From Nereocystis luetkeana (lineage: Eukaryota > Sar > Phaeophyceae > Laminariales > Laminariaceae), in the NCBI GenBank assembly GCA_031213475.1, contig JARUPZ010000009.1:5303601-5367600 (forward strand): DNA of 64,000 bases, given 5' to 3'. The position numbers and the translations under genes were made by a program. The notes beneath the pieces were generated by a model. The model was not told the DNA's origin. It saw only the letters and a program-made list of their open reading frames with translations, and made no database searches. Shown here piece after piece: positions 33,550 through 58,049 of this stretch (position 1 is its first letter; the number at the start of each line of letters is the position of its first letter).

Positions 33550-33640
33550 AGCAAATATCAGGGCTTCGAGGGCAACTCCCGTCCGAGCAGCATACGTTAC
33601 CTGATTGGCACAAAGGAGGTTGGTGCAGCGGTTAACGCAT
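33550..33640 (-). pseudogene. Degenerate cysteine-module exon
   Basis: On the minus strand CQSGNVCCSDGSC is clearly the centre of a six-Cys module (C-x4-CC-x4 spacing, then IC before a GTGAGG donor). The first Cys is lost from frame: a TAA lies upstream, and the apparent acceptor GGGCAG/ATGCG puts the start in another frame. It lies 5 kb beyond the intact array on the same strand and suggests that the gene or an ancestral array extended this far. Confidence 0.5.
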
Positions 33641-33649
33641 CTGCCCAAC

Positions 33650-36600
33650 GTACACTTGTTGTAGCACAACCGACGTCGGGACATACACCACATCCAGGCC
33701 GGTATTCTCCTGGCGCCTGATCGAGATGGATACCCCGTAGGTATGATTCGTTGTTTTGTCCCAATCAAGATCGTATCTATCTCCGAGTATCCAAATACTG
33801 TAGGTACCTGCTGTCTTTGGTTTTGCACGTATGTGAATAACGTTGATGACATGCTCGCACTTTTCGACCCCTACCAGGGTGTGAAACCAGTCCTGTCTGC
33901 CCTTCGACCTCCGTATGCTGCCCGAGCGGGAACTGTGATGTGATCTGTGGTGAGAAGAAGCTTAGATTGGCAATGTTCGTGGCTGGAGTGGTCTAGTCCG
34001 AAGCTGTTATGGCGAATATATATTGTGTTGCATTACTGACGTACACAATGGCTTAGCAACTTGTGTCTCTTCTCTGTTGCAAGGCTGCTTGTCATATCTC
34101 CCAATCTATCGGCGGTGTTCCAGAAACTACTCTGACGGTGTATACATATTTCTCTGCATGTTTTTACATGCCATCATGACGCGCACACATCCTGTTGCCC
34201 GCCGTCGACCGAGTTTCGCCGCAGTTTTCTAGCCCTCGCCAAATCCACTCTGCTGCAATGAAGGCGGTCTATGCCCACCCGATAAGATTAGCTTCCAGGA
34301 CGGAACATGTGCCCAATGAGAATTTCCTCACGATGGGGATTGCTCTGTGTGTCGTAGTAGTTGTGATACTGGACACCCCCTGTCTATCCAGCACGGACAC
34401 CAGCGATGAATGGTAAAACCATGGAATATACATAATCCACTTTATGCTGTGTATCCACGAACGTCCGGCGTGCCGTCGTACCCATATTCGACTTTTGAGT
34501 GGTTCGCGCTCATTCTAGAATGCACATAAACAATCCCGGGACGTCCGACCTATGATAACAGATTAAAACCAACTGCCACAGGGATGAGTACTTTCAACAC
34601 CGTTTACGTTCTGGTCGCTATATTTAGTACATCGTTCTAAGCCAACACCGCTTGAACAATTGATTGGTCGATATAAATCAAACACCCGCCCGCATTGAAG
34701 CTGATTTTACATGTCGACATAGGGCGCATGTTGCAGTAGAAGCACGGCGTGGCAAGATAGTGCCTGACAGACCGAGCTACTCAACGCCAAATTCACCAAG
34801 CAGTGTTGGACTGTCATTCAAAGTTAACACTATTCTCCGTTTCACATATCCATTTTTTTAACTTTTTTTTTCATCCTCCAGCGAATTGGTAAATTAATGT
34901 TTTACCTCACCACACTTCCACATTCTCGTGTCGGGTGTTCATTTCGCCAACAACTCCCCTTGCAACATCAGCACACGCTGCTGTTTCTACTACTGGCGCT
35001 CGGGCGCGGTGACCCACATGATTCACGAGAGGGGTAGGTGCGGTGGAGATAGGCACCCGGGAGGGTCATCTCTCCCGGGTAGTGTGGGATTTGGGCGAGC
35101 TCACTCACTAACAAAAACCGGGGCTATGAGGCCTCCTCACCGGACTTCGTCCAGGTACGGTCCACACTCCTCGTTGGGTCGTTGGTTCACATCTACAGAC
35201 CATATGATTATCCCTCGGGTTTACCAAGGATATCGGAGGGGGTATATGACCAATACCGATTTGAACAATAACGATTACGATTAAAAGGATATTTGTATAA
35301 CCTCTGAAGTCCGGAACCTCTAAAAACGTCCGGCACCACCCCGACAATTGTATACATCATACAACCTCCTTATCTTGCTTGCGTTTCGAGAAACAGCCTA
35401 GTGTGCAAAAAACGCCTGCCACCAGAGGGGCAGCACTGTTTGAACAGTGATTTTATCTGAATGACAGAATCTCTTTCACTCGATGATTTTGGAGTTTTTT
35501 TCCGGTATTGGTATCTGTGCATGTACGACGCGGAATCGTGTATCACCGGAATTGTGGATCACCCGTTAATGCACTTTCGGTTTCATCTAGATCAGTATTT
35601 TCTGTGACCCATTACGGGGGACCATATGTTGAAGAACCAATATTTGTTAATACAACTGAGTAAATATATAGATTTTTAAGATACCACAGGTCACAGGTCC
35701 TACAAACTATGCCCCCCCGTAATAGTAGTAGTGAGGCAGAGCTCCTCAAGCGGGTGGCCTCCGTGATTATGACCGTTGCAACTGCACATTAACAAGCAAA
35801 GACCTCGCAGAGCCAATATCACGGATGTCCGCCCGCTTATTGGTGGTAGTATTGTGCGGGAATGCCGTCAAGTGCATGGTGGCGGAGAGTGCTCACCCGA
35901 TATCAGTATGTGATTTTCTCAATCCATAGTAAACACGCAGGCGGTGAATTACATACATGTATTGTTTGCGGCAACATGTTATGCGATTCCTCAATTTACC
36001 CCAGTCGCTGGTGACAGTCTGTTGGTATATGTATGCCTCTGTATCTGGTAGACGTACGCATAGTGTAGATAATTGTCTTCGTGGTATGTCTGGTATTTTG
36101 TTGAGCTGGGGGAAGCATTCACCGTGCCACGGTTGGTGTTTGTTGGCGTCTAAAGCCAATATTTTGAAAACATAGACATACATCCAATCGGCGCGGCATA
36201 TGTCAGATATATTGTTCATATAGAATTGTGCTACGTGTGCTATTCCAGTACTCTTCTTTCACCCCGGGTACAGGTGAAAGGTTCGATTTGTTTATATGTC
36301 ATCGTCCAACGAGAAGGGGGTTTTACAACACTTTACTTGCGGGGTCTTCGACTACTGTGTTCGTTTTACGTGATCACGTCCCACTTCCGACGTGTTCTTC
36401 CTCGTCGATTTTTGAACAGTCTGACTGGGTTTATTTATCTCATCGTGTTTCAAGTATTCATTCAATAAATCTTCTCGAACCACAGACGGAATCGAGTCGT
36501 ATTGCGTGTGTAGGACGAGCGCGGGTGGCCAACCAAGTGGGTTTCTAATGTTTCTACGACCTTGTCGAACCAAACTGAAGAGGTAGCTGATGCTTCCTCT

Positions 36601-38765: not shown

Positions 38766-38846
38766 CACACAAATCGAGGGTATCAGCACACTTTTCATCC
38801 GAGCAGTAGAAGGCATGTCTGGGGCATATGGCACAGTTGTGACAAC
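38766..38846 (-). pseudogene. Module exon B5 (81 nt, damaged)
   Basis: Last recognisable B-type copy of the array. Donor TGTG/GTGAGG is intact. The acceptor position ends in GGG instead of CAG. The module keeps four framework cysteines, but the third (first of the CC doublet) is Tyr, and an extra Cys sits between Cys1 and Cys2. Probably not spliced. Confidence 0.55.
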
Positions 38847-41800
38847 CCCTCGTGAGGTTGGTTGCAGAGTAACCCCCCCGAGAGTCACACCGGAGTACGC
38901 AATCCACGTTCCGGAATACCGATTCCAATTCAAGTGAAACAAGGAGTTTACCACCTATGAGTAGTCAGTAGTTCAACAAGAACACACGCATCGACCGGTA
39001 AGCCTATGGGGTCTTGACACCCGCTGCCCCCCATCTACGGTAAACATGGTCAACTGTCGAGAAGCTGAACCATGACAAATCCTCACCACAATCATCGATA
39101 GTGTCAGCGCAAGTCCCGTCCGAGCAGCATTCCGCCGTAGAAGGGCAGTCGCCGTCGCCTCGGCATTCTGATACGTTTCGGTCAACATGAACATGTCGGT
39201 GATGGAATACGTGCACATGTCTGCAGACAGTCATTGTTACTTTCGACACGTAAAAGCCGCAACGCATACACATCGACTCGTCAGGCGGTAACATCTATCT
39301 GTAAACCACAACGGGATGGAACACAAGAATATCAAACAACGCAAGAAACTTCATGTCTGCTGCCACCTTCACCAACATAACCTGTAATCGACTCCTCACC
39401 ACAGGACACGAGGGCGTCAACACACGTTCCATTCGAGCAGCAGAATGTACCTCTGGGGCATCCCTCGCCGTTGTTACAACCTGGCGTTTAATGGAGGCCC
39501 GCCACGGGAGAGGGCCGTGGACAGTGCAATATACGAGTGGCTGTCGTAAGAAAAGAATGCGCGCTTTGGAGACCGTTGAAATAATTATAACGCTAATCTG
39601 AATCCGAGTTTAAAAAGGCGCCGGGGCTACAAGCATTTTAGCACACCCATGTACCGTGCAATGGGTCACACTCGACAACGTCTTCCGTCTGTGTCGGGAA
39701 ATAGACCGGTTGCTTCCGAGAGTCGGTTCCCCACCGCAGTCGTCAACCGTTCGAGCGCAAGTCCCGTCCGACCAGCACTCGGCAGTGAGAGGGCAGTTGC
39801 CGTCAGCACGGCATTATGGCCAGAGTAGGTCAGTTGGAACACGCCGTGAGGGGGATATGGAAATGTGTAAATATCAGACGATCGCTACTTTTTTTTCATA
39901 GATGGGGCTATATATAGCGGAATGAGCACAAATCCTCGTGAGGTGGCAACACGCACAAAATACGAGGGAATACCAAGCACAATATCGGCTAAAACAAACG
40001 CAAAAGACCGGGAGCCTAACGGCTCCTACCGCCACCACGACCTTAAACTCATTTTCGCCTGTCTCACCACAGGACACCAGGGTATCAGCACACGTTCCAT
40101 CCACGCATCAGAATTGATTTTCATCACATCTACCGTCATTTTCACAACCCATTATTGAATGAATGTCGCACGCCAATAAGGGCGATCGGCAGAGCAACAC
40201 AGGAGAAGAATCGCGTAAGAGTGGGACAAAGATGCAGGTAGACTCAGCTTGGTACACCGTCAAGACTAATGTCGATATACCAACCAACAAATTAGGTTTG
40301 CACATAAATGGGTAAGCTGCGTACCTCGAGCATGGGACACGCCTTCCAAGTACTATTTCGCGCGCTCGACAAACACCTGCCGTCAGTTTCGCATTGTAGC
40401 TTCGGTACTTAACACAGATAAATTATCACCGCAGACATTGAGAGTTTGGGCACAAGTCCCGTTTGAGCAGCTCTTGGTTGTAGCAGGACAGTCACCGTCA
40501 CCACGGCATCCTGGCAAGTGTAGGTCATTAAGGACAAGGTACGGTTGAAACCTGTACCTGTGGATATAGGAATCGATATCTACCCCCCATATATTTAGTT
40601 TCAGCGGAAACTCGCAGCTGCTCGTTGGACGGCAACACGCACCAACCATGATCGCATTCCCCCAGTACACGGCCAAAGTATAATGCTATACAGCATGAAC
40701 ACCACGCCTGTTACTGTTACCCCCACGCAATTATTCAATCGACTTCTTACCACAGGACGTTAAGGTTTCGGCACACGTGCCGTCTGAGCAGCAGAATGTA
40801 CCTCTCGGGCATACCCGGCCGTTGTTACAACCAGGCGTTTAATGTAGGCCCGCCACAAAGGAGGGCCGTGGACAGTGCAATATACGAGCGTATCTCGTAA
40901 GAAAGGAACGCGCGTAAGGGTAAACACAGCTTTGTAGGGCCGTTGAAGTAAGTATTGATGATGAATCATACGCTGACCTAAATTCGAGTTTAACAGGCGC
41001 TGCGACCACAACGATTTTAGAGCACCCCTTTACCGTCAACTTGCTCACACTCGACAACGCCTGCTGTCCGTATCATGCAATGGTCGGGCACTCTATACCG
41101 ATAAATACTCACCACAATCATCGATGGTTGGAGCGCAAGTCCCGTCCGAGCAGCATTCGGCGGTAGAAGGGCAGTCGTCATGGTTTTTGCATTCTGGCAA
41201 GAGTCGGTCATCGGGAACACGTCTAGGTTGGGATATGTATACGGCAAACAGTACACGATACCTACTATCGATAGAAAGAGGGGCAGCAAAACATGCAGCA
41301 CACCTCTTTAGGCATCAACACGCATGAAACCTGAATATAATGTAATCCTAAATACTGTTCAAAGAGAAGGTGAAAGTCAAGGAACCTCACGCCTGCTGGT
41401 GCGACCACAACCACCGCCGTCTCCAACAACCTCTCACCGCAGGACGCAAGCCTGTCAACACACGTTCCATCCTCGCAGCAGAATGTACCTCTGGGGCATC
41501 CCTCGCCATTGTTACAACCTGGCGGATGCAGACGCCCACGAGAGAAGGCGATGGTCAGTGCAAACAACGACAGGCTCTCTTGAGAATGGGATTCACAAGA
41601 AGCAACAAATGGTTTGGCACATTCTTACGTTTACAACCAACTGCAACGAAGTTACGAGTGTTCATCAGCACTTCGTACATGGACGATTAGACACATATTG
41701 GCCGTCACCATTGTTTACACTTGACACCTCGTGGCGTCCAGGATACTCGATAGGTTTAGTTGCCAAATTCTGTGCCAAACCGAATCGTCTGAATTCTAAA

Positions 41801-44800
41801 CCCGAAGAGTACTGGGCTCCCGGGCGTCGTGAGTAGGGCACACACGTACCCCGCGACAATAATAATAGTTAGTGTCGCTACTGTAGTACTTACAGAGGTT
41901 TCGTGTACCGGTATGAATGTCTTGCACTCTGAGAAGTGCAGGTTAATGTGGCACGGGCGCACATAACTCACTAAAGTTATTTGCGGGTGATAGTATGTAG
42001 TATATCCGTACCCCGGGCGCTGTGACACGGGGGCACACAGGCAACACACGTTTCGTGTACGGATACAAAAATTATATATACCTTACGGGAGTCACGGTCA
42101 CCGGGATGGGTGACGTACAAAACATAAAAGTTCAACACGTGGCAAGGGAGAGGTACTCATATGGTTGAGATATTTAGGGTTCCTCGCATAAAGAACTCCC
42201 CATGATACAATAATGAGAATCTAACGATCTTCAAAACCTCTGAAAGTTTTTGTCGATGGACAAATCCCATTTCCGACTAGCAGGGGTACATTTGATGCCA
42301 CCACAAAAACAGACAGCGATGCGTGCGACGAGTTTAGGCTCGTCTCGGCAGAAACATGCTGCCTCAATCGGCATTATGTGGGGTACTACCGGTAAAACTA
42401 CCCTGGGTACTCGTGCGACATAACAAAAACCTGCATACTTCGGTTCTAAGATGAAACGCGTCAAACAACACGAGAAGAGGCTACCGGTTTCAAGCACACT
42501 TGTTCGTTGCCCGTAAGACACTCGTGAAACATCTGCAACGATCAGCAATTTTGAGACTGCCATCGAAAACTACAAATCATCGCCATAAGTTTCGGAGTCA
42601 TCGCAAAAATCAGTCGTACAGTCCCCTCGATTGCCACACAGCATACAAGGAAGTGAGTGCAAGCACGAATGGATTGTTAACCGAGGTAAAACAAAAGAAG
42701 ACGCAAGCCTCATGTAAAAGAGTAGCTCCATTTTACAGTGTGCGTCTGGGTCACGTCGGGTACTCTGGCGACAGTTGCGTTTGAATGTGTGATATTATTT
42801 GTCTATTTACGAAAATAATGCAATAGGTCTGAGCGTGAATGGTGGGCACTCAACGTTTCGAACATTGCCTTACACGCATCGCGACGCGACAGTAGTCTGA
42901 CCCCCTGTGTTAGCATAGACATCACGCCTGAGTTTCAAAACCTGTTAGATATATCTGAAGGGTACCTGGTACAACGTTTCACTACAGACGATGTTATCCC
43001 AAACGAATGCCGTCTAAAACACTTTAGTAGACCTATACGCGCCCGTGTTTCGAACCTAAGACTTAGATAATCGCATATAATATCAAATGGTCGATAGAAG
43101 CTTCGACGTTAGAATGAAACTTACGTTCCTCACCACAGTCCTCGGGGTCGGCGGTACAAACCCCGTTTGGGCAGCACACTGAATCTCCAAAGCAGTGGGT
43201 GTCATCCTTGCATTCTGTTACAAACCGTGTGTTGCACGGAGTATGGGACAACCACACGATAACGGCAGTTGATGTGAAAACAAAATGGGTCGTACCGGTG
43301 TTGAATGCGCAATTTCCTGCCTGTTTTATTTGAACATCCTGCACGAACTTGGGCGACAGTGGTGCTGCTGTACACGAAATCGCTTTTGTATAAATTTGGG
43401 TTTGGTGTGACACATTAAGAGGGCAGCTGCGGTGTATATTGCAACCCAATTTTGTTGTGCGAACATATTTCCTAAGCCAAGCATCCACTTCTCTAAGACG
43501 TCGCAGTTGATAACCATTTGACGTTTATTCTCGACTAGTTTTCCTTGGACCACGGCAATCAAAATTACTGCGAAGCTAACATGTTCCTCACCACAGTCCT
43601 CGAGTACTTCGACACAAGAACCGTCAGGGCAAAAAACCATACCGTCGGCACAGCCGATGGGGTCATCGTCGCAGACTGTCGCATAACGTGAAGTGAGACA
43701 CGGCGCGGACGGCAATCGTCGTGGAAACGGGCGCGTTACTCACGTGGCAAAGGCGAACACGTTTTTCAGCGAAGGATTTGAAGAACATTGGAATTGCTTG
43801 AGGTGTGACATCGGACATAGGTCACTCATAGGTGTTATCACATGTATTCAAATCACTATAAAGAGGACATCGTGGACGTGCGAAGCCTCACAAGCAATAC
43901 CGTCGTGCAGTATGCGCATCTAAATCTGACCAAAGGGATAACCATGTCTGACGTGGTAACTGTCGCGCGTGCAAGAGATACAACGACCGTGCGTACCACT
44001 GTGACAGATGCACAGACGAATTTTGACCCACTTCTATATATCATGTGCCTGGTACGCCCTACTAAGACCGACGGCGAGCCATCACGTACCCCCGCGTTCA
44101 CAAGTATCTTTTCTGCAGGGTATGAGCATCATCATCTTATTAGGCAGTTGCTCAGGCTAAATCTAACCCTAGTTGGTAGTTGTATGTGGTGTCACCGTTG
44201 GCAAGGCAGACTGGTATCGTAAAAGTCGACGTCGACCAATAAACGTCCAAATGTTTTATTGTTTGGACGGGAGCAGGGGCGTTCACACGCAGAACCATTC
44301 GGTTTGTGATTTGTCTAACAGCAGCCAGCGCTTTAAAATCAGGAAGGGGGTAGTGGAGTACACACATTACATCGCCAATCTAGAACGAGCAAATAAATTA
44401 TCCACGAGGAGTTGAGCACTCGTTGCGAACACGGTCAAAACCTGCCCTGAGAAAAAAAATATTTCGGCAACGAACGGTGTGACCTGAGGAACTGGTATAC
44501 AACAGGCCGAATCTCTCTTTTTTGAGACCGGTGTATATCTGGGTCGTCTCAAGTACAGGGAATCCAAACCTACGTAAAGGTTATCATTTTACAAAGCAGC
44601 TGTAACAACACGTCATCGACGTTTTGGTCTCGAACAATCCAGCGGCAGCACAACAACTGGTCGGAAAGCATAACCCGACACCATCCACGACCGCAACGTG
44701 GGAATCTAAGCTCGACTCCTCACCACACATCGTGAGGTCGTCGACGCAAGATCCGTCTGGACAACACACATCGCCACCAGGGCAGTGCTTGTCTTTCTTG

Positions 44801-47800
44801 CAACCTGTCGGAAACATCGTGGGAAACCATCCGGAAACGACTGTTTCAGCAATCTTATTGAATCTAATAGATCCGTGGATATATGGTGTACCTTCAACGT
44901 ATACGATAGGTTTCACACGCACCAACATATTTACGATGGCAGGGTCACAAGAATTGGACGTGCAACAAGAGGGGGAAACGCCTCACTCCAGTTTCCAAGT
45001 CCCGTTGTCTCCGATGTGACATGTTATATATGACGATGCTGCAACCCCAACTACCCGGTCCACCCAGACGTACATGGCGATAGGTGCAGAAACTTCACCA
45101 AGATCGGCAGGGTACGGAAATTATTTACAGGTTTACTTCGGAACGGAATGCATGCCAAGCGTTCAGTCTGGCGCTTAGCGACATTCCCACCATACCAGCA
45201 GCTCCATGCATCGACCTTATCCTGAATATCGCACGCACCATACTCCATCCGAAATAAAATCAGCACGATATGTCCACACCTACATCCCCAACAAGGTACG
45301 ACCATAGCACATTAAGTGAACTCGAACGGATTTGTGTAATATGTATAGTCCTACAACTGGACTCGACAGAACAACAACTGGAGTGTTTGTCAAGTTCCGA
45401 TGAGAAAATGTTCACATTGGTGGGCTTTCAATTTGCTTAGGTACGTTTTCCGAGTTTGACATGTGTACTTTCCGTGCTGTATTCGATCAGCTGGAACGTG
45501 GTCGTCTTGGTGCGGGTAAGAGATATCGACTAGCTACGAGATGCATATATCCTACAAAGCAATTATTCAAAGCTATTCCCGTTCAACGTTTTTTTAAACG
45601 ACCGACAACCGACACAATATTCCCACGGAATTGCGTCAGTGCTTAACACATCTATGCATTCCACAAAAAAACATGGCTGTCGTCGCGCAAACCAGTACGG
45701 AAGGTCATGGCCGCGCGCTAGCAGTCGCAACATTGAGTCAAAGAGAAAATATGTTTTGGGTGACACTGTGAAGAGACTCAGTCGATGCACCCGGAACAAG
45801 ATTCAATAAGAATACCCTCATCGAAGCGAGCATTAGTGTAATCAGCTATACTATGTTGAACTCTAACCATGCCCCCCTCTCTTCTACGTACCTCTTCGTG
45901 CGCCGTCATCTAAGACCTGTTTCCAACTGCAACACGTAGTCAAACATAGTATGTCAAGGTAGAAGGGGGCTTGATGTTTGGTCACACCTTTGCAGAAGCC
46001 GTTTTTGCACTTTCTCTTGTAGCAGTCACAGCCGCTCCCCGTACAACACGGCATCAGGGGGGCAAGAGCGTTTTTCGCTGAGGTGGAAAAACAAAAACAG
46101 GTCACAGCGGTACATGCGTTGTGCGTACGTTCTTGTCAAATCGAATCTCGCGGGCGTTTCGGTGACTAAGTCGCTTGCGCTGTGGCTATTTACACTGCTG
46201 GTCATGAAGATGGCTAGTTATTCAAACAAGGTATTGATTGGCCTGTTAACCATTGTAGCACTACCTACCAAAAATCGACCTAGCACCCAATTGTCACCGG
46301 ATATACACTACCAATTGCGACACAGATATGCGAACCATTTTGTTACGGTGTATATGTTGCCTTCATGCAGATCATCAGAATTGCCCTCAACACATGTTAG
46401 GGTTATATCGGAACCGAAAAACGTTTCGAGAAATGGATCAATTGGAAACAATTGGGAAAAGCACGTGTGACCATTTAACGCTTCAACCGATATGTGTTGT
46501 GTTGCAAGGTATTCTGACAAAACGTTGGCAACAATTGATGCACCCACGTCAATTCAGATAACCGATAGTTGTTCGTGATATTAGGTCGGAAACACTCTCT
46601 AGGCCGTTAGCTTCCATCGCTCTCTAAACGGCTTCCATGACTCCAGCGTTCCAGCAATCTGGTCAAACACTGGGCTGGTTTTAAGATATTACACAGGGCA
46701 TACGTAGCGATTTATAGGTCAAACGCCCCAGGTATATAGTTAGTCACTGTTTCATACTTTTCGCTTGGGGTGCAGTCGATTGGATCGTGCAGTAGGCGAC
46801 ATATATACTCTACCAGGCTACACTCCGGGGTGACACCTTCAACCTGTGCGTGACACTGTAAATTCCGCCGGCATCTCAAGCCGATGTAAGGTGAGGGTAC
46901 GCGATGGCTGGGCCACCCGCTCGAGGGATTCGGTGCTCCAACTTATAAAAGGAGGTGTACACATAAGTTGAGGGCGTATCGTAGCCAAGAAACCATGGGG
47001 GATACACCTAACTCAATCGAAACTCTCAGACAGAACATATTTACCGTTTTAAACGAGCAGTTCTGGCTACCTACAAGATGGTTTTCCGAAATTTAGCGTG
47101 GTCATTACTCTCGCGTCCGAGTCATCACCTCAATGTATTATGTCACCCTGTACAAGCTTTCAATGTACCAACACGATCAAGTCCAACCCCTGTCGGAAAT
47201 ACGATGAAGTGGAAAATCTCCCAGAAAAGGTATAACTACCCTATAATGTTGGTTTTCGCTCGTTGAGTCCACGTGACCGGCCGCGATAACGGAGAAATGT
47301 GCACCAACCATACATGCGACGGCTTCCGAACCTAGTTTGCGTTATTAGTTGGTATTTAATGAGCAGGTAGACACGCGTTTCCGCGCTGTTCTGATATGTA
47401 GTGTGTGTGGCATGCACCCCGCCCCGTATCTCTTGAAGTTACTTACTGACACAGAATGAAGGGTCGTGCAGCGTCCCGCAGCAGGCGGTGTCGCAGTCAT
47501 CGTTCACTGTACAAACTGATTTGAAGCACAACAGGGTTGCAGGCACCAACAGTGTCAGGCGGACAGGGAGTGCGCGGGATTTACGTTATAGTATCGACCC
47601 GGGAAGCTTGAGTGTCGATTTAGAGTCATTCGCACCTTTCTAGAAGCATGGATAACATAGTTATGTCAAAAATAATATAGGGATTGCTGATACCTTCCTA
47701 GCTGGGTAAATGAGCAAACAAATTTTCATGAATACCCTAAAAAGAAGATCAAGGATCGGTAATGTCTAGACCCCCTGTTTAGACACAACAGGTCACCGAC

Positions 47801-48731
47801 GAAGTTTGTCGTATGTTCCATACTAACCTCCGTCGTGTGTCATCATGTTTTGGATGTAACTGGCAGGTCGTCCATATGTCGTTTCCGTTCAGGCTTGAGC
47901 GGCAACAAAATATTTTTTTACGGTCCCAGAATACCTTGCTGGCCTTCGCAACCCCCTCCCCAGTACTCGAGATTAGGAAGTACACGAACAAACCCGGGGT
48001 ATGTTAGTTCCTAAACAACAGCGTATACGTCCTCATGCCGGATGTAATTACTGCCAACAGTAACAGCAACTGTCACAAATTCCAAGCACGGCAGTACAGG
48101 CGGTACGGAAGGAATACACGCTCACATGATATAAAAAAAATGTATGGGGCTAACTGTCATCTTGCATATTTTGTGCATGTCCGAAGAATTTTCGAGCATC
48201 TGTCTTCAGCCTAGCGTTTGATCAGGGCGGTAAACTGCATGTGTCTTGTCTACCTGCCCAATCTGGCCCTTCTTAAGTTCGGCACTATCGTTGACGAGGC
48301 CAACGGTGATTACATCCCAACTCAAACTTATCGCAAATAAATGTCACTGTTCCCTGTTTAGTAAAAAACGCGATTCGCGTCGCATGTCACTTTTGCGCTG
48401 AAGGCCTGAACTCCGTACTTGATAAAGTACAACAAACCCATCAAGTATATATTCAATCAAGTCTATATGATGGGACCACGTGAAAAAACAGGTAGGTACT
48501 AGAAGTGATGACAAGGTGTATAGAGACTATACCCGTATAGAAACATATGAGCTACGCGGCCATTCAAACATTCTGAACGAATTTTTGACCAGGAAACTAC
48601 TTTGAAGCGTAAAGTACATCGAAATTTTTCGTGAGAGGGCCAAACTTACCATCGCCTTCATCTTGTGCATATGCTGAGAGGGCAAAGAAGAGCACGACGC
48701 ACGCACCCTTGGCATAATGGGCGAAGCGCAT
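38766..48731 (-). CDS. Secreted multi-module cystine-knot-like protein gene (exon array)
   Basis: Gene model on the minus strand: a signal-peptide exon (48650-48731), two Cys-rich exons (47447-47515, 45988-46077), then twelve module exons from 44804 down to 38766. All junctions are phase 1, so every exon can be skipped, added or duplicated without a frameshift. Most modules have C-x5-C-x5-CC-x4-C-x6-C, the cysteine order of inhibitor-cystine-knot (knottin) peptides; I infer the fold from spacing alone. The product should be exported and disulfide-rich. Introns are 0.23-1.6 kb. The terminal exon and stop were not found. Five module copies carry a damaged CC doublet, four lack a proper acceptor and one has a TGA, so the 3' array is partly decayed or alternatively spliced. 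I know no named family with this architecture. Function is unknown: defence peptide, protease inhibitor and extracellular-matrix roles are all possible. Confidence 0.7.
39087..39167 (-). CDS. Module exon A4 (81 nt, intact)
   Basis: Acceptor TATCAG/AATGC and donor TGTG/GTGAGG are both good. Encodes E-C-x5-C-x5-CC-SDGT-C-ADTIDD-C in phase 1-1. Nearly identical in sequence to exon A1 (41113-41193), with the same CSDGTCA centre and TIDDC end. Confidence 0.75.
39400..39480 (-). CDS. Module exon B4 (81 nt, intact)
   Basis: Acceptor CGCCAG/GTTGT and donor TGTG/GTGAGG are intact. Encodes G-C-NNGEG-C-PRGTF-CC-SNGT-C-VDALVS-C. The intron on its upstream side (39481-39734) closely matches the intron upstream of exon B2 (40832-41112), showing that exon and intron were duplicated together. 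Confidence 0.75.
39735..39815 (-). pseudogene. Module exon A3 (81 nt, both splice sites damaged)
   Basis: The frame is open, but the acceptor reads CCAT instead of CCAG and the donor is TGCG/GTGGGG rather than GTGAG. The fourth cysteine (second of the CC doublet) is Trp. Likely a non-functional copy. Confidence 0.6.
40068..40148 (-). pseudogene. Module exon B3 (81 nt, nonsense mutation)
   Basis: Aligns with B-type modules over all 81 nt. The first codon of the CC doublet is TGA, and the acceptor reads ATGG in place of CCAG. The second half (C-VDGT-C-ADTLVS-C) and the donor TGTG/GTGAGA remain intact, so decay appears recent. Confidence 0.65.
40430..40510 (-). CDS. Module exon A2 (81 nt, Cys3 to Ser)
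   Basis: Acceptor TTGCCAG/GATGC is good. Donor TGCG/GTGATA is a weaker match to the GTGAG seen elsewhere. Encodes G-C-RGDGD-C-PATTK-SC-SNGT-C-AQTLNV-C: the first of the CC pair is Ser, leaving five framework cysteines. Confidence 0.6.
40751..40831 (-). pseudogene. Module exon B2 (81 nt, acceptor lost)
   Basis: All six cysteines and the frame are intact (C-NNGRV-C-PRGTF-CC-SDGT-C-AETLTS-C), and donor TGTG/GTAAGA is acceptable. The acceptor reads CGCCTG where the sister exon B4 has CGCCAG: one A-to-T change that should abolish splicing unless a cryptic AG is used. Confidence 0.6.
41113..41193 (-). CDS. Module exon A1 (81 nt, intact)
   Basis: Acceptor TTGCCAG/AATGC, donor TGTG/GTGAGT. Encodes E-C-KNHDD-C-PSTAE-CC-SDGT-C-APTIDD-C, with all six framework cysteines, phase 1-1. 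Confidence 0.75.
41438..41518 (-). CDS. Module exon B1 (81 nt, intact)
   Basis: Acceptor CCGCCAG/GTTGT, donor TGCG/GTGAGA. Encodes G-C-NNGEG-C-PRGTF-CC-EDGT-C-VDRLAS-C. It is the first member of the alternating B/A array, separated from the more distinct module at 43134 by a 1.6-kb intron. Confidence 0.75.
43134..43214 (-). CDS. Module exon 6 (81 nt, intact)
   Basis: Acceptor GTAACAG/AATGC, donor TGTG/GTGAGG. Encodes E-C-KDDTH-C-FGDSV-CC-PNGV-C-TADPED-C in phase 1-1. Diverged from the A/B types and not part of their tandem unit. Confidence 0.75.
43592..43675 (-). CDS. Module exon 5 (84 nt, Cys3 to Phe)
   Basis: Acceptor GCGACAG/TCTGC, donor TGTG/GTGAGG. Encodes V-C-DDDPIG-C-ADGMVF-C-PDGS-C-VEVLED-C. 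One residue longer in the first loop than the other modules, and the first of the CC pair is Phe. Both splice sites are good, so this five-cysteine variant may be a real product. Confidence 0.7.
44724..44804 (-). CDS. Module exon 4 (81 nt, intact)
   Basis: Acceptor TTCCGACAG/GTTGC, donor TGTG/GTGAGG. Encodes G-C-KKDKH-C-PGGDV-CC-PDGS-C-VDDLTM-C, the clearest example of the C-C-CC-C-C cystine-knot spacing. First module of the repeated type after the two N-terminal exons. Confidence 0.8.
45988..46077 (-). CDS. Exon 3: CC-x4-C-x-C-x4-C-x4-C segment
   Basis: Strong acceptor (TGTTTTTGTTTTTCCACCTCAG) and donor AAAG/GTGTGA give a 90-nt phase 1-1 exon. It encodes LMPCCTGSGCDCYKRK then CKNGFCK, basic and cysteine-dense, unlike the later modules. 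If the donor is not used, the frame stays open to a TAG at 45884-45886. That would yield a short secreted protein of three exons as an alternative product. Confidence 0.65.
47447..47515 (-). CDS. Exon 2: C-x5-C-x3-CC-x8-C segment
   Basis: Acceptor AAATCAG/TTTGT and donor GTCA/GTAAGT (a near-perfect donor) bound a 69-nt phase 1-1 exon. Encodes V-C-TVNDD-C-DTA-CC-GTLHDPSF-C-V. The CxxxDDC start resembles the later modules, while the second half differs. Confidence 0.7.
48650..48731 (-). CDS. Exon 1: start codon and signal peptide
   Basis: ATG at 48731. MRFAHYAKGACVVLFFALSAYAQDEGD has a basic start, a hydrophobic core (ACVVLFFALSA) and an A-Y-A/Q cleavage site after about residue 22. The exon ends GATG/GTAAGT-like in phase 1, matching the phase of every downstream acceptor. 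This places the product in the secretory pathway. Confidence 0.7.
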
Positions 48732-53088: not shown

Positions 53089-54138
53089 AAAAAGAAAAAG
53101 AAAAAAAGAAGGCGGGGACGAGCCTCTCGTCGGCTGGCAAAGAAAGCAGCACGCAAGGCTCGTAAGAGACAGAAGGAGGCACTTGTGACGGTAGCGACCT
53201 ACAATGTGCGCACCCTGACTGTAAAGGGGAAGAACGGGTACGGACATGACGAGCGTGTACTGGCGAAGGGACGGCAACTCGGCTGTGACTTCATTGGCCT
53301 GCAAGAAACTCGGAGGTCCGGCAGCACGACGTTCCGTGCGGCAGGGTATCGCGTTTTCTGTTCAGGACAGGAAACAACAGCCACCAGGCAAGGGCTGTAC
53401 GGAGTAGGCCAAGCTGTCAAGGAATCGTTGTGCAGTAAGTCTGTGTATACTCATCAGTTCGTTGACGAGCGGCTAATGTCTATGCGCTTTGAGCTGGCTG
53501 GCAAATGCGAGGCAGTCAATTTCGTTGTTGCGTATGCTCCAACTGATTGTACCAAGGACGCCGAACTGAAACTTATTTTCTGGCAGAAGCTGGAGTACTT
53601 GATGAAAAAAATCCCGACGAAAGAGTGTCTGTTTGTACTGATGGATGCCAACGCGCGAACTGGACAGAGGAAGGAAGGGTGCGGTGATGATGCAAGCAGA
53701 GTGCGGGGAGCGTATGGACGTGATGTTCGTCACGATAATGGCAGACGCCTCATGTCGTTCGCCACCAATTGCAAGTTAGCTCTCACCAACACGTTTTTCA
53801 GCACGCGCAAGGGTGGGATATCGCATACTCACAACGGCACCGGCCCGAATGACCGGAAGCGGATTGACTACATCCTAACCCGTCAAGTCCATCGACCTAG
53901 AGTACAAGATGCGAAAGTCGTCCCACAGCCTCCTGCCCCAGCTAAGGCTGACTCAGACCACAACATCTTGTATATCAAAGTCCGACTCGGTGGTCATTTT
54001 GCGCCCAACAGACAAATACGCACACCGACGAAACGCCGAGAGTTCGACAGGCAGATTTTTATGTCCGATGGAAATGGTCGTGAACGAGTAGTCTCCAGGG
54101 TCATCTCCACTCTCAACCAGGCTATCCATGCCCCGTAA
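53089..54138 (+). pseudogene. LINE apurinic-type endonuclease domain
   Basis: The frame opens after a TAG at 53086. An Arg/Lys-rich N-terminus (KKAARKARKRQKEALV) leads into TVATYNVRTL, LGCDFIGLQETR, MDANARTGQ, and ADSDHN, the Asn, Glu, Asp/Asn and Asp-His positions of the endonuclease-exonuclease-phosphatase fold. These enzymes nick the target DNA to prime reverse transcription. All catalytic positions I can judge are present. The frame ends at 54138, where the element should continue into RT. Confidence 0.8.
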
Positions 54139-56128
54139 TACGTCTGGTATGGTTAAGATTTTCACAACGGCTGTTATTGATGCGGTCGGAAAAGAGGTAC
54201 CACCCCCTGCACGTCGCCACCGCAGACATGGATGGTGTGAGTCTGCCGAAACCTTGGCCGCATTCATGCCAGCATGGACAGCGAGGGAGGATGGACGACA
54301 ACTCTTGCGTGCCCACCCCCGGGACAGAACCGCGTGAAAGACCCTGAGATCTGCGTGTGCGAACCTGCTGAAAGTGATTGCCTCAGGACTGCATGCGTAC
54401 TTCGAAGCGTACCTTGCCGAAATCGAACGACTCCTAGCGAAGAGCGACCAAAGAGGCTTTTTCAAGCACCTTAAGAGTACGGTAGGATTGGAAGGGACTC
54501 AAGCGAGGAGCGAACAGTTCATTAGGGACGAGGATGGCACGATCCTACGGGATAAGGTGCGAATTCGTGAAAGATGGGCGGGGTTTTACCACAAACTCTT
54601 GAACACGAAGTCGCTGAAACTCGCTCCCACGATCATCGACCTCTTGCCACCGCGACCGCCTAAACTGTCGCTTGAAGATGAACCATCCATAGACGAGATG
54701 ACAGAAGCACTTAAGGGGATGTCGAATTGGAAAGCTCTCGGGCCAGATGGTCTCCCGGTCGAACTCCTAAAGATCGACCACCCGGCATTCGCCCAGCGCT
54801 TTCACAACATCCTTGTCAATGTTTGGTTAACAGGAGAAGTCCCTCAGCAATGATGGAAAGATGCGATTATCAAGGTCCTTCACAAAAAGAAGGATCGAAC
54901 TGACTGCAACAACTATAGAGGGATTTCGCTTGTTGCCCACGCAGGCAAAGCGTTGTTGAAAATCGTCGCGTCCCGCCTCAGCAACTACTGCGAGACCGAG
55001 GAACTACTCCCCGAGGAACAGTGCGGCTTCCGCCCCGCACGATCAACGATTGATATGTTGTTCGTCGTGTGCCGGCTGCAAGAGCTCGGACGACAGAGGA
55101 AAATCCCCTTATACGTGTGCTTCATCGATCTGCAGAAAGCGTACGACTCTGTCGACCGAGAGCTGTTATGGAAGGTACTCACACCCTTTGGCGTACCAAC
55201 CAAGATGCTGGGAATTATCCGTAATTTCCACGATGGCATGCGGGCTCGCGTGCGTACTGATGACGGCGAGCTCTCGGAATGGTTTGATGTCACGCAGGGG
55301 CTGCGGCAAGGCTGTGTACTATCACCGTTACTGTTCAACGTGTTCTTCGCTGCTGCGTTACACTTCGTAATAGTACGCTTCAGCCAAGACGAAGCCATTG
55401 TAAGGGATGTGGTCCAACTCTGTGAAGCTGGAGTAGTTCGAACAGGGAAGGAGGCCCCATTGGCGTGCGTGCGAAGGTCTGTATGGGGCATGTTGTACGC
55501 CGATGATGTAGGAATTGTCTCGAAGTCGGCTGAAGGGCTCGCAAAAATGGTGACAGTCATCGTGACTGTCTTCGAAGCAGCAGGCCTCACGGTGTCGGAA
55601 AAGAAGACTGAGACAATGGTCCTACAAACACCAGACCAGACAACCCTCGCACCACCGCTCGTCATCGGAGCGGCAGGTCAGAGGTATAAGCAGACGACCT
55701 AGATATTTTACCTAGGCGGCGTTATCCACGAATACGCTGCGCTCTCGACCGAAATCGACCGACGGATCCGCCTCATGCGAGCATGCCTCAACCGGTTCGG
55801 CCTGGAGTTGTATGATAAGACGACCGCCCCCCTTAGCCTTAAAGTCCGAATGCTGAAGGCCGAGGTGATTGAGACCCTGCTGTACGGGCGTGTGACGTGT
55901 ACCCTCAGAGCGGAACACTTTGCAAAGCTTCGAACGGCTCACCACCAAGTCCTGCTGCGAGTCATTGGCTTCCAGCGCCGACTTCATACTGACCATGCCA
56001 CCTTCTCGTACGCGAAGGCCCTCAAGATGACACGTTGCGAGAGCATCGAAACGACCATTCGTAAACGGCGGCTCTTCTTGCGGGGGGCGTGGCAGGGCAA
56101 AGCAAGGAGCGATTACCCAGTCGGGTAA
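54128..56128 (+). pseudogene. LINE reverse transcriptase and thumb region
   Basis: One frame throughout, with stops at 54335 (TGA), 54851 (TGA, an extra codon between QQ and WK) and 55700 (TAG). Motifs in order: [87 protein letters not shown] (YADD at 55496-55507), [16 protein letters not shown] and YLGGVI. The metal-binding aspartates are intact, so inactivity comes from stops rather than active-site loss. Confidence 0.85.
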
Positions 56129-56574: not shown

Positions 56575-57447
56575 AAAGTAGAACATGACCATACTACTAG
56601 TTAGTGCTACAAACCGGTGTAGCTGGTTCGAACGTGGTCTTCCCTGGTCTTCTCTTCTTGTTTTTTTTTTTTTTTCTTTCTTGCGCTGATTTTCATGTTA
56701 TTTTTTTCTCTTCCTCTTCCTTTTCTGATTGATAAGCCGTACTGAAGGAGACGTGTGGCGTGGTTGGAAGACGAACCTGCTCTGCTCGTTTCGTATTGTC
56801 TGACGCCAAGGGGCTGGGCATAGTTGACGAACGCAGGGCGGAGACGGCAGTCTGGGTAGCAAGGTACCAGGCGGATTAGCAAGGAGAACCTGGCTATACT
56901 ACTCGTACCACAAGCTGCTGCCGTCACGTGGAAGGTGCTTTGGGCTTTGGTCTGCCTGTTATTTCCCCTTTGTTATTTTTCCTTGTTACTTTTTCCCTTG
57001 GTTCTTTGTCTTATTCTGTTTACAAGCAGTGGTGTTTTTTCCATTTTTTTTTTTTTTTTTCTTCTTTTTTTCTCGAGCTCGTTCTTTTTCAAATGTTGGC
57101 CACCTCGCCTGCGGGGGGGGGGGCAAGACAGATTGTTTCTCTTAGATTTTGCTTTCATTTTTCTTCTTTTTCTCTTTCGATTTGTCTACCTTGTTTTTGT
57201 TTTCTCTTTGATTGTTTCTTTTCGTTTCACTATTTCATAGATTGCGTATGTCGTGCCTGTCGTATCTAGTATGATGACAGGGCTTTGCATTGCCCACTGC
57301 AGTGCACACTGCATACGTGGCAACGTAGTATCTCTGTGGCGTAGCTTTGTGACCACATAACTTGTATATCTTCTAGGATTGAAGAATCGGCACGGACACT
57401 GGTTGTGCTGGATGTTTGACGAGTAGAATGAACGGTTTAATGTGAAG

Positions 57448-57588
<141 letters not shown>

Positions 57589-58049
57589 GGTATATATATA
57601 TATATATATATAATATATATATATATCTTGGGGTTTCTGTCAAAATCAGGTATAACTGGCCACGGTTCGGCCAAAATCAGTTACATTCTAAAAACAAGAC
57701 CGAAAACGCCCGAGGAGCCTTGCTGTTGGCCAGGCTGACATCGAAACTGATTATAGCTCGAACAGGCCAAGGTGTGCAATGTTTTTTTTCTATTCTGTCC
57801 GAGTTTCAACTGATTTTATCAAACTTTGAACCAACCAGTCAAAGAGGCCATACGTGCACTGTTTTCTTTCTCCATATGCGTCTGCCCTCCCACGGTCGAA
57901 TTTTTTTTGTACTAACGTATTTACGCTGTATGTACTCGTACGTTGTACGTGAAAGTACGTATTTACGTATGCATACATGCTTTCTCTAATGGTTTTACTT
58001 TTCTTCGTTGGGGTGGGCGACGTGCTGCAGTTGCCAATAGTTGTTGTGA

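Follow-up and report, generated by a model that had tools for sequence, protein, structure and literature searches.

The gene on the minus strand at positions 48731-38766 of the window, as we call the whole stretch of 64,000 nucleotides of Nereocystis luetkeana DNA analysed here (C9:5303601-5367600), is most probably a member of a family of secreted cysteine-rich proteins, itself probably brown-algal, in which a tail of modular exons follows a conserved head. The predicted gene structure is well supported by relatives in the same genome, which comprises 465 Mb in 1987 contigs. In what follows, W denotes the window copy, U and V its diverged neighbours, and X, Y and Z distant paralogs.

Exon structure of the window copy

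As the preliminary description had proposed, a signal-peptide exon (E1), two cysteine-rich head exons (E2, 69 nt, and E3, 90 nt) and twelve module exons (M1 to M12) were found on one strand:

48650-48731, minus strand: E1, 82 nt with a phase 1 end, carrying the start codon (ATG) and the signal peptide; equal length in U and V; MRFAHYAKGACVVLFFALSAYAQDEGD
47447-47515, minus strand: E2, cysteine-rich head exon, 69 nt, phase 1-1; 69 nt likewise in U, V, X, Y and Z
45988-46077, minus strand: E3, cysteine-rich head exon with a GCDC motif, 90 nt, phase 1-1; 90 nt likewise in U, V, X, Y and Z
44724-44804, minus strand: M1, six-Cys module exon, 81 nt, splice sites intact
43592-43675, minus strand: M2, five-Cys module exon, 84 nt, splice sites intact; Phe replaces one Cys
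43134-43214, minus strand: M3, six-Cys module exon, 81 nt, intact
41438-41518, minus strand: M4, six-Cys module exon, type A, intact
41113-41193, minus strand: M5, six-Cys module exon, type B, intact
40751-40831, minus strand: M6, six-Cys module; acceptor not AG in W (AG in array copies L009 and L013)
40430-40510, minus strand: M7, five-Cys module exon, splice sites intact
40068-40148, minus strand: M8, decayed module without AG acceptor, in-frame TGA
39735-39815, minus strand: M9, decayed module without AG acceptor, Trp for one Cys
39400-39480, minus strand: M10, six-Cys module exon, type A, intact
39087-39167, minus strand: M11, six-Cys module exon, type B, intact
38766-38846, minus strand: M12, degenerate module without AG acceptor

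The splice sites of E1, E2 and E3 are consistent and their borders lie in phase 1. Both AG and GT are present at eight of the twelve modules, and the acceptor AG has been lost in the other four (at 40831, 40148, 39815 and 38846), so that the claim that all exons are of phase 1-1 is borne out, as far as the modules go, for the eight with working sites and not for the four that lack AG. The modules had been described as mostly of exactly 81 nt and with one six-cysteine frame. The length, assigned by homology, is indeed 81 nt in 11/12 and 84 nt in the remaining one, and the exact C-x5-C-x5-CC-x4-C-x6-C frame is present in 7/12, whereas the modules at 43675 and 40510 carry five cysteines. This exact frame occurs seven times in the window, always within the gene interval, and was absent from 60 surrogates drawn from a first-order Markov model of the window composition. 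From 41518 on, modules of type A (GCNNG...) alternate with modules of type B (ECR.DGDC...). The odd number of cysteines in M2, where Phe stands for Cys in W, U and V, could leave a free thiol or allow an inter-chain bond.

Judged from the sequence, some modules are decaying through loss of the acceptor, and because this applies to 4/12 modules the W copy may be partly or wholly in decay. A coding-like signal at 45128-45214 was rejected as an exon, there being a stop in that frame in V, and the 3' end of the gene was not found in the sequence analysis of the locus. Elsewhere in the window, a LINE-like element on the plus strand (53089-55702) carries an endonuclease (PF03372) and then a reverse transcriptase (PF00078) in successive frames; a second reverse-transcriptase frame (PF00078; 14879-15865, plus strand) perhaps belongs to an LTR element, which is a guess. 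A long CA/TG repeat at about 57430-57590 yields spurious Cys-Val frames, and a search of the window for Rfam families and tRNAs gave zero matches.

Near-identical copies in a tandem array

The gene is matched at six sites, spaced about 113.6 kb apart except for a first step of 123.7 kb, and probes taken at 62.4 kb and 20.7 kb of the window each occur six times with similar spacing. The array was traced from window positions 20700-62900 and, on the contig, at C9:5324300-5945341. Compared over 10 kb of the gene, the five further copies (L009 to L013) are 99.57, 99.96, 99.95, 99.95 and 98.5% identical to the window, and all five are 97% identical to it at the 20.7-kb probe; the difference between these two levels indicates that the array units are mosaics. 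The differences between L009 and the window are confined to 39537-42796, a trimmed end aside. The head exons E2 and E3 and modules M1-M3 are intact in 6/6 near-identical copies, E1 lying only partly within the compared stretches. The acceptor of the module at 40831 is AG in L009 and L013 and is absent in the window copy and in L010-L012, and near-identical copies should therefore differ in the exons that they can splice. The six-unit array is read from the assembly and may be an artefact of it.

Diverged neighbours, selection and possible loss of 3' exons

The diverged neighbours are U (C9:5.193-5.208 Mb) and V (C9:5.142-5.155 Mb), whose aligned pieces of the gene region share 73-88% identity with the window. 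In both, E1, E2, E3, M1, M2 and M3 have the lengths found in W (82, 69, 90, 81, 84 and 81 nt) and every splice site is kept. Over the 157 codons of E1-E3 and M1-M3, dN/dS is 0.335 for W-U, 0.394 for W-V and 0.366 for U-V, and the tail modules give a pooled value of 0.384 from 9 non-overlapping nearest pairs, some of which include modules with lost sites. Intact module exons number 14 in U, 7 in V and 8 in W.

Relative to V, the window is inverted at about 33640-36380, and relative to U at 33660-35909. Three relics of modules were recognised in and beside this stretch:

33551-33628, minus strand: downstream relic of a module; the related exon of V (C9:5142571-5142488) is intact and 84 nt long
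33877-33936, plus strand: module relic inside the inverted stretch; its counterpart in U and V is a 72-nt phase 1-1 exon on the gene strand
34254-34313, plus strand: second module relic inside the inverted stretch

Further 3' on the gene strand, U and V each hold one intact 72-nt exon, and V holds an 84-nt exon in addition. Since these intact exons lie beyond the part of the gene described above, the gene may once have extended further, and in the window its ancestral 3' exons may have been severed by the inversion at about 33.64-36.4 kb.

Traces of the process by which modules multiply were detected at three loci. Around one exon of X lies a tandem 269-bp repeat whose neighbouring copies are 97.8% identical and which contains two intact modules; U has a 938-nt match with itself at 87% identity, shifted by 1.38 kb; and W has repeats of 178 nt (83%, shift 1351), 135 nt (83%, shift 2038) and 213 nt (73%, shift 1380). 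The repeats in W show that exons have been copied along with intron sequence.

Distant paralogs and the definition of the family

In X (C9:11.036-11.067 Mb), E1 is 76 nt long and 46% identical to that of W, E2 is 69 nt (50%) and E3 is 90 nt (50%); these are followed by 14 intact modules, with exons of 81, 84 and 87 nt, in which the second cysteine loop is often 7 residues. In the 16 kb examined of the paralog Y (contig C39), E2 and E3 come with a single module, and in the 7 kb examined of Z (C9:4.946-4.949 Mb) they come with one module of 90 nt. On contig C4, the 18 kb examined holds four E3-like matches (one by tblastn only), each with an E2-like match upstream, and no module tail was recognised behind these heads (L034, C4:13417001-13426000; L035, C4:13328001-13337000). 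Heads with one recognised module or none in the stretches examined, as in Y, Z and C4, imply that it is the head that defines the family, the module tail being its variable part.

Across six loci, 61/61 retained exons are open in frame, bordered in phase 1 and flanked by splice sites, a count to which we attach no probability because the exons share ancestry and were chosen beforehand by homology and the presence of sites, those without sites being left out. All 57 retained internal exons at these loci are of class 1-1, that is, with phase 1 on both sides and a length that is a multiple of 3, and the codon split between successive retained exons encodes Gly in 26/55 cases. The number of intact modules varies between paralogs, from 1 to 14 per locus at the six loci, with one repeat per exon. 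Taken together, the common head exons, the phase 1-1 borders and the dN/dS of 0.34-0.39 argue for a real family that gains and loses whole exons. The earlier view of a multi-module protein with a signal peptide, encoded by phase-symmetric exons and gaining and losing modules, is thus supported by the head exons and modules of five further loci (U, V, X, Y and Z) and by the dN/dS just given.

Homology and fold of the module

The inhibitor-cystine-knot framework has six cysteines in the order C..C..CC..C..C with knottin-like loops, and 7/12 W modules have exactly this order, with loops of 5-5-0-4-6. In a knottin, disulphides I-IV, II-V and III-VI make up the knot. With AlphaFold, one model weakly matches squash inhibitors over 23-24 backbone residues and the more confident model matches nothing. 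In all eight modules tested, every score listed for the Pfam families WAP, Squash, Toxin_19, Ldl_recept_a and DUF7107 was below the curated cut-off. Of the earlier designation as knottins, the cysteine spacing therefore stands, while the fold models contradict each other and Pfam adds no score over cut-off; taken as a whole, these data weakly suggest that the module is a knottin. The WAP four-disulphide core has eight cysteines, and the W modules have at most six.

Pfam gave zero matches, and no signalling domain, on the 324-aa joined W protein, and zero matches on four head proteins; there was likewise no NCBIfam match and no phage match. Compared with squash trypsin inhibitors, waprins and the hevein-type chitin-binding domain, the module had no significant sequence match (best E 0.03), and as a single-module query it found zero homologues elsewhere. 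The joined W protein gave 5 matches at E <= 10 among 718 candidates, one of them a frame (P0003) with a module of the W type and the other four, by eye, apparently other cysteine-rich repeat proteins. A profile query returned 5 of 1413 candidates, namely P0003, itself in the query, P0006, P0007, P0008 and P0009, which is the window. Inspected by eye, P0008 tracks W through exon and intron around module 1, and P0007 tracks a module of V, so that both represent the same or a very close species; P0003 and P0006, which are different, may be relatives. Among the open-access papers listed in literature searches, no title or abstract beginning described the W module or a brown-algal knottin. Module and head thus match no curated family over cut-off. 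Genes with one repeat per exon are known from brown algae (LRR-ROCO) and class 1-1 extracellular modules from animals; the W family combines the two in a new way.

A separate repeat is abundant in the same genome. The EsV-1-7 family (PF19114) is expanded in brown algae, and here all 150 of the 150 scored among 1710 candidates were over cut-off, with none in 14 control genomes, which makes a brown-algal host probable; these repeats number at least 150, and many of them follow one another within a single open frame (contigs C1, C6, C12, C13, C14, C25, C26 and others).

Proposed role of the protein and its alternatives

With phase 1 borders on every retained exon, an exon or a block of exon and intron can be duplicated or skipped in frame. 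Unequal exchange in introns would alter the number of beads, each a module of about 27 residues with six cysteines encoded by one exon, and a bead with a dead acceptor would drop out in frame through exon skipping. The protein would be exported and would fold as a chain of disulphide-stabilised beads. After the likely end of the signal peptide, the joined intact W exons encode 275 residues with 57 Cys (about 21%) and a calculated pI of 4.05 (Ala replaces the split-codon residue at the E2/E3 junction for this composition and in the head proteins searched against Pfam). Such an acidic chain could bind multivalently in the cell wall or matrix, the module count setting its length and avidity. Multivalent binding of this kind is our first choice of role, and it is a tentative one.

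Nearly as likely as the wall role, although doubtful in itself, is a defence polyprotein whose inhibitor- or toxin-like knottins would act, singly or chained, against proteins of grazers or microbes. A pI of about 4 speaks against a membrane-active cationic peptide, the module-averaged dN/dS is below 1, and the more confident fold model gave no match, all of which counts against this reading.

It is improbable that the W copy is a pseudogene or on its way to becoming one, with only the relatives elsewhere in the genome still at work. The missing AG acceptors of four of the twelve modules, one of which also has a stop and another a Cys-to-Trp change, point in that direction, as do the inversion downstream and the pair W38846/V5147136, whose 7 non-synonymous and 0 synonymous differences are as expected of a dead exon; they are opposed by the intact E2, E3 and M1-M3 of the six near-identical copies, by the dN/dS of W against U and V, and by the frame, which is kept when decayed exons are skipped. 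We give least credence to a variable recognition protein with exon choice by alternative splicing, as has been proposed for the brown-algal LRR-ROCO and NB-ARC-TPR genes, even though the logic of one phase-symmetric exon per repeat is the same (PMC11378527), frame-neutral skipping is possible in the W family and near-identical copies differ at one acceptor, because the joined exons, which do not cover the 3' part of the gene, contain no Pfam signalling domain and the dN/dS across modules, an average rather than a value per site, gives no sign of diversifying selection.

Relation to known modular proteins

The exported chain of modules behind a conserved head, as we propose it for W, shares part of its cysteine spacing with squash trypsin inhibitors, waprins and the hevein-type chitin-binding domain, all of which differ from the W module in the number or spacing of cysteines. 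A signal peptide with tandem cysteine-rich repeats is also what characterises the SCREPs, or secreted cysteine-rich repeat proteins, which PMC6262176 treats as a descriptive class and not as one homologous family. The two-domain inhibitor-cystine-knot toxins of spiders likewise have more than one six-cysteine domain per secreted chain, with domain gain and loss, but PMC13172734 places both of their domains in one exon and ascribes them to intra-exonic duplication, whereas in the W family each module has an exon to itself and a locus holds as many as 14 intact ones. The family would be an exon-built contrast to these double knottins.

Closer to W in gene structure are the brown-algal LRR-ROCO genes, for which PMC11378527 describes tandem LRR exons of an equal 72 nt in phase 2, encoding GTPases, and reports alternative splicing and exon shuffling of the LRR exons, and the NB-ARC-TPR genes, cited there with Zambounis et al. 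2012 as having one repeat per exon. These genes and the W family are alike in their tandem, equal-length, phase-symmetric exons of one repeat each; the W family is unlike LRR-ROCO in having six-cysteine modules of 72-90 nt, phase 1-1, behind a signal peptide, and the joined W protein, having no Pfam match, shows neither the LRR or TPR repeats nor the LRR-ROC-COR or NB-ARC make-up of the proteins that those genes encode. The claim that no such family had been described must be narrowed accordingly: repeat-per-exon LRR-ROCO genes are on record (PMC11378527), while no family with the W module was found in the papers and databases searched. The W family would add an extracellular repeat-per-exon type to the LRR and TPR genes of brown algae.

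According to PMC8001218, extracellular modules of class 1-1 are the rule in animals, a dominance that it calls mysterious, and the same review raises the question of why exon shuffling should be confined to Metazoa. It may be, though we advance it with reserve, that outside animals disulphide-rich extracellular modules of class 1-1 arose and multiply by exon duplication in multicellular brown algae, starting from a gene in which a phase 1 intron lay directly behind the signal peptide. If so, the animal-specificity of exon shuffling and of class 1-1 modules would become testable in a second, independently multicellular lineage. The W family resembles the animal modules in its phase 1 introns on both sides and in the phase 1 intron near the signal-peptide border (PMC8001218), and differs from them in showing repetition within one family, with no transfer into other proteins.
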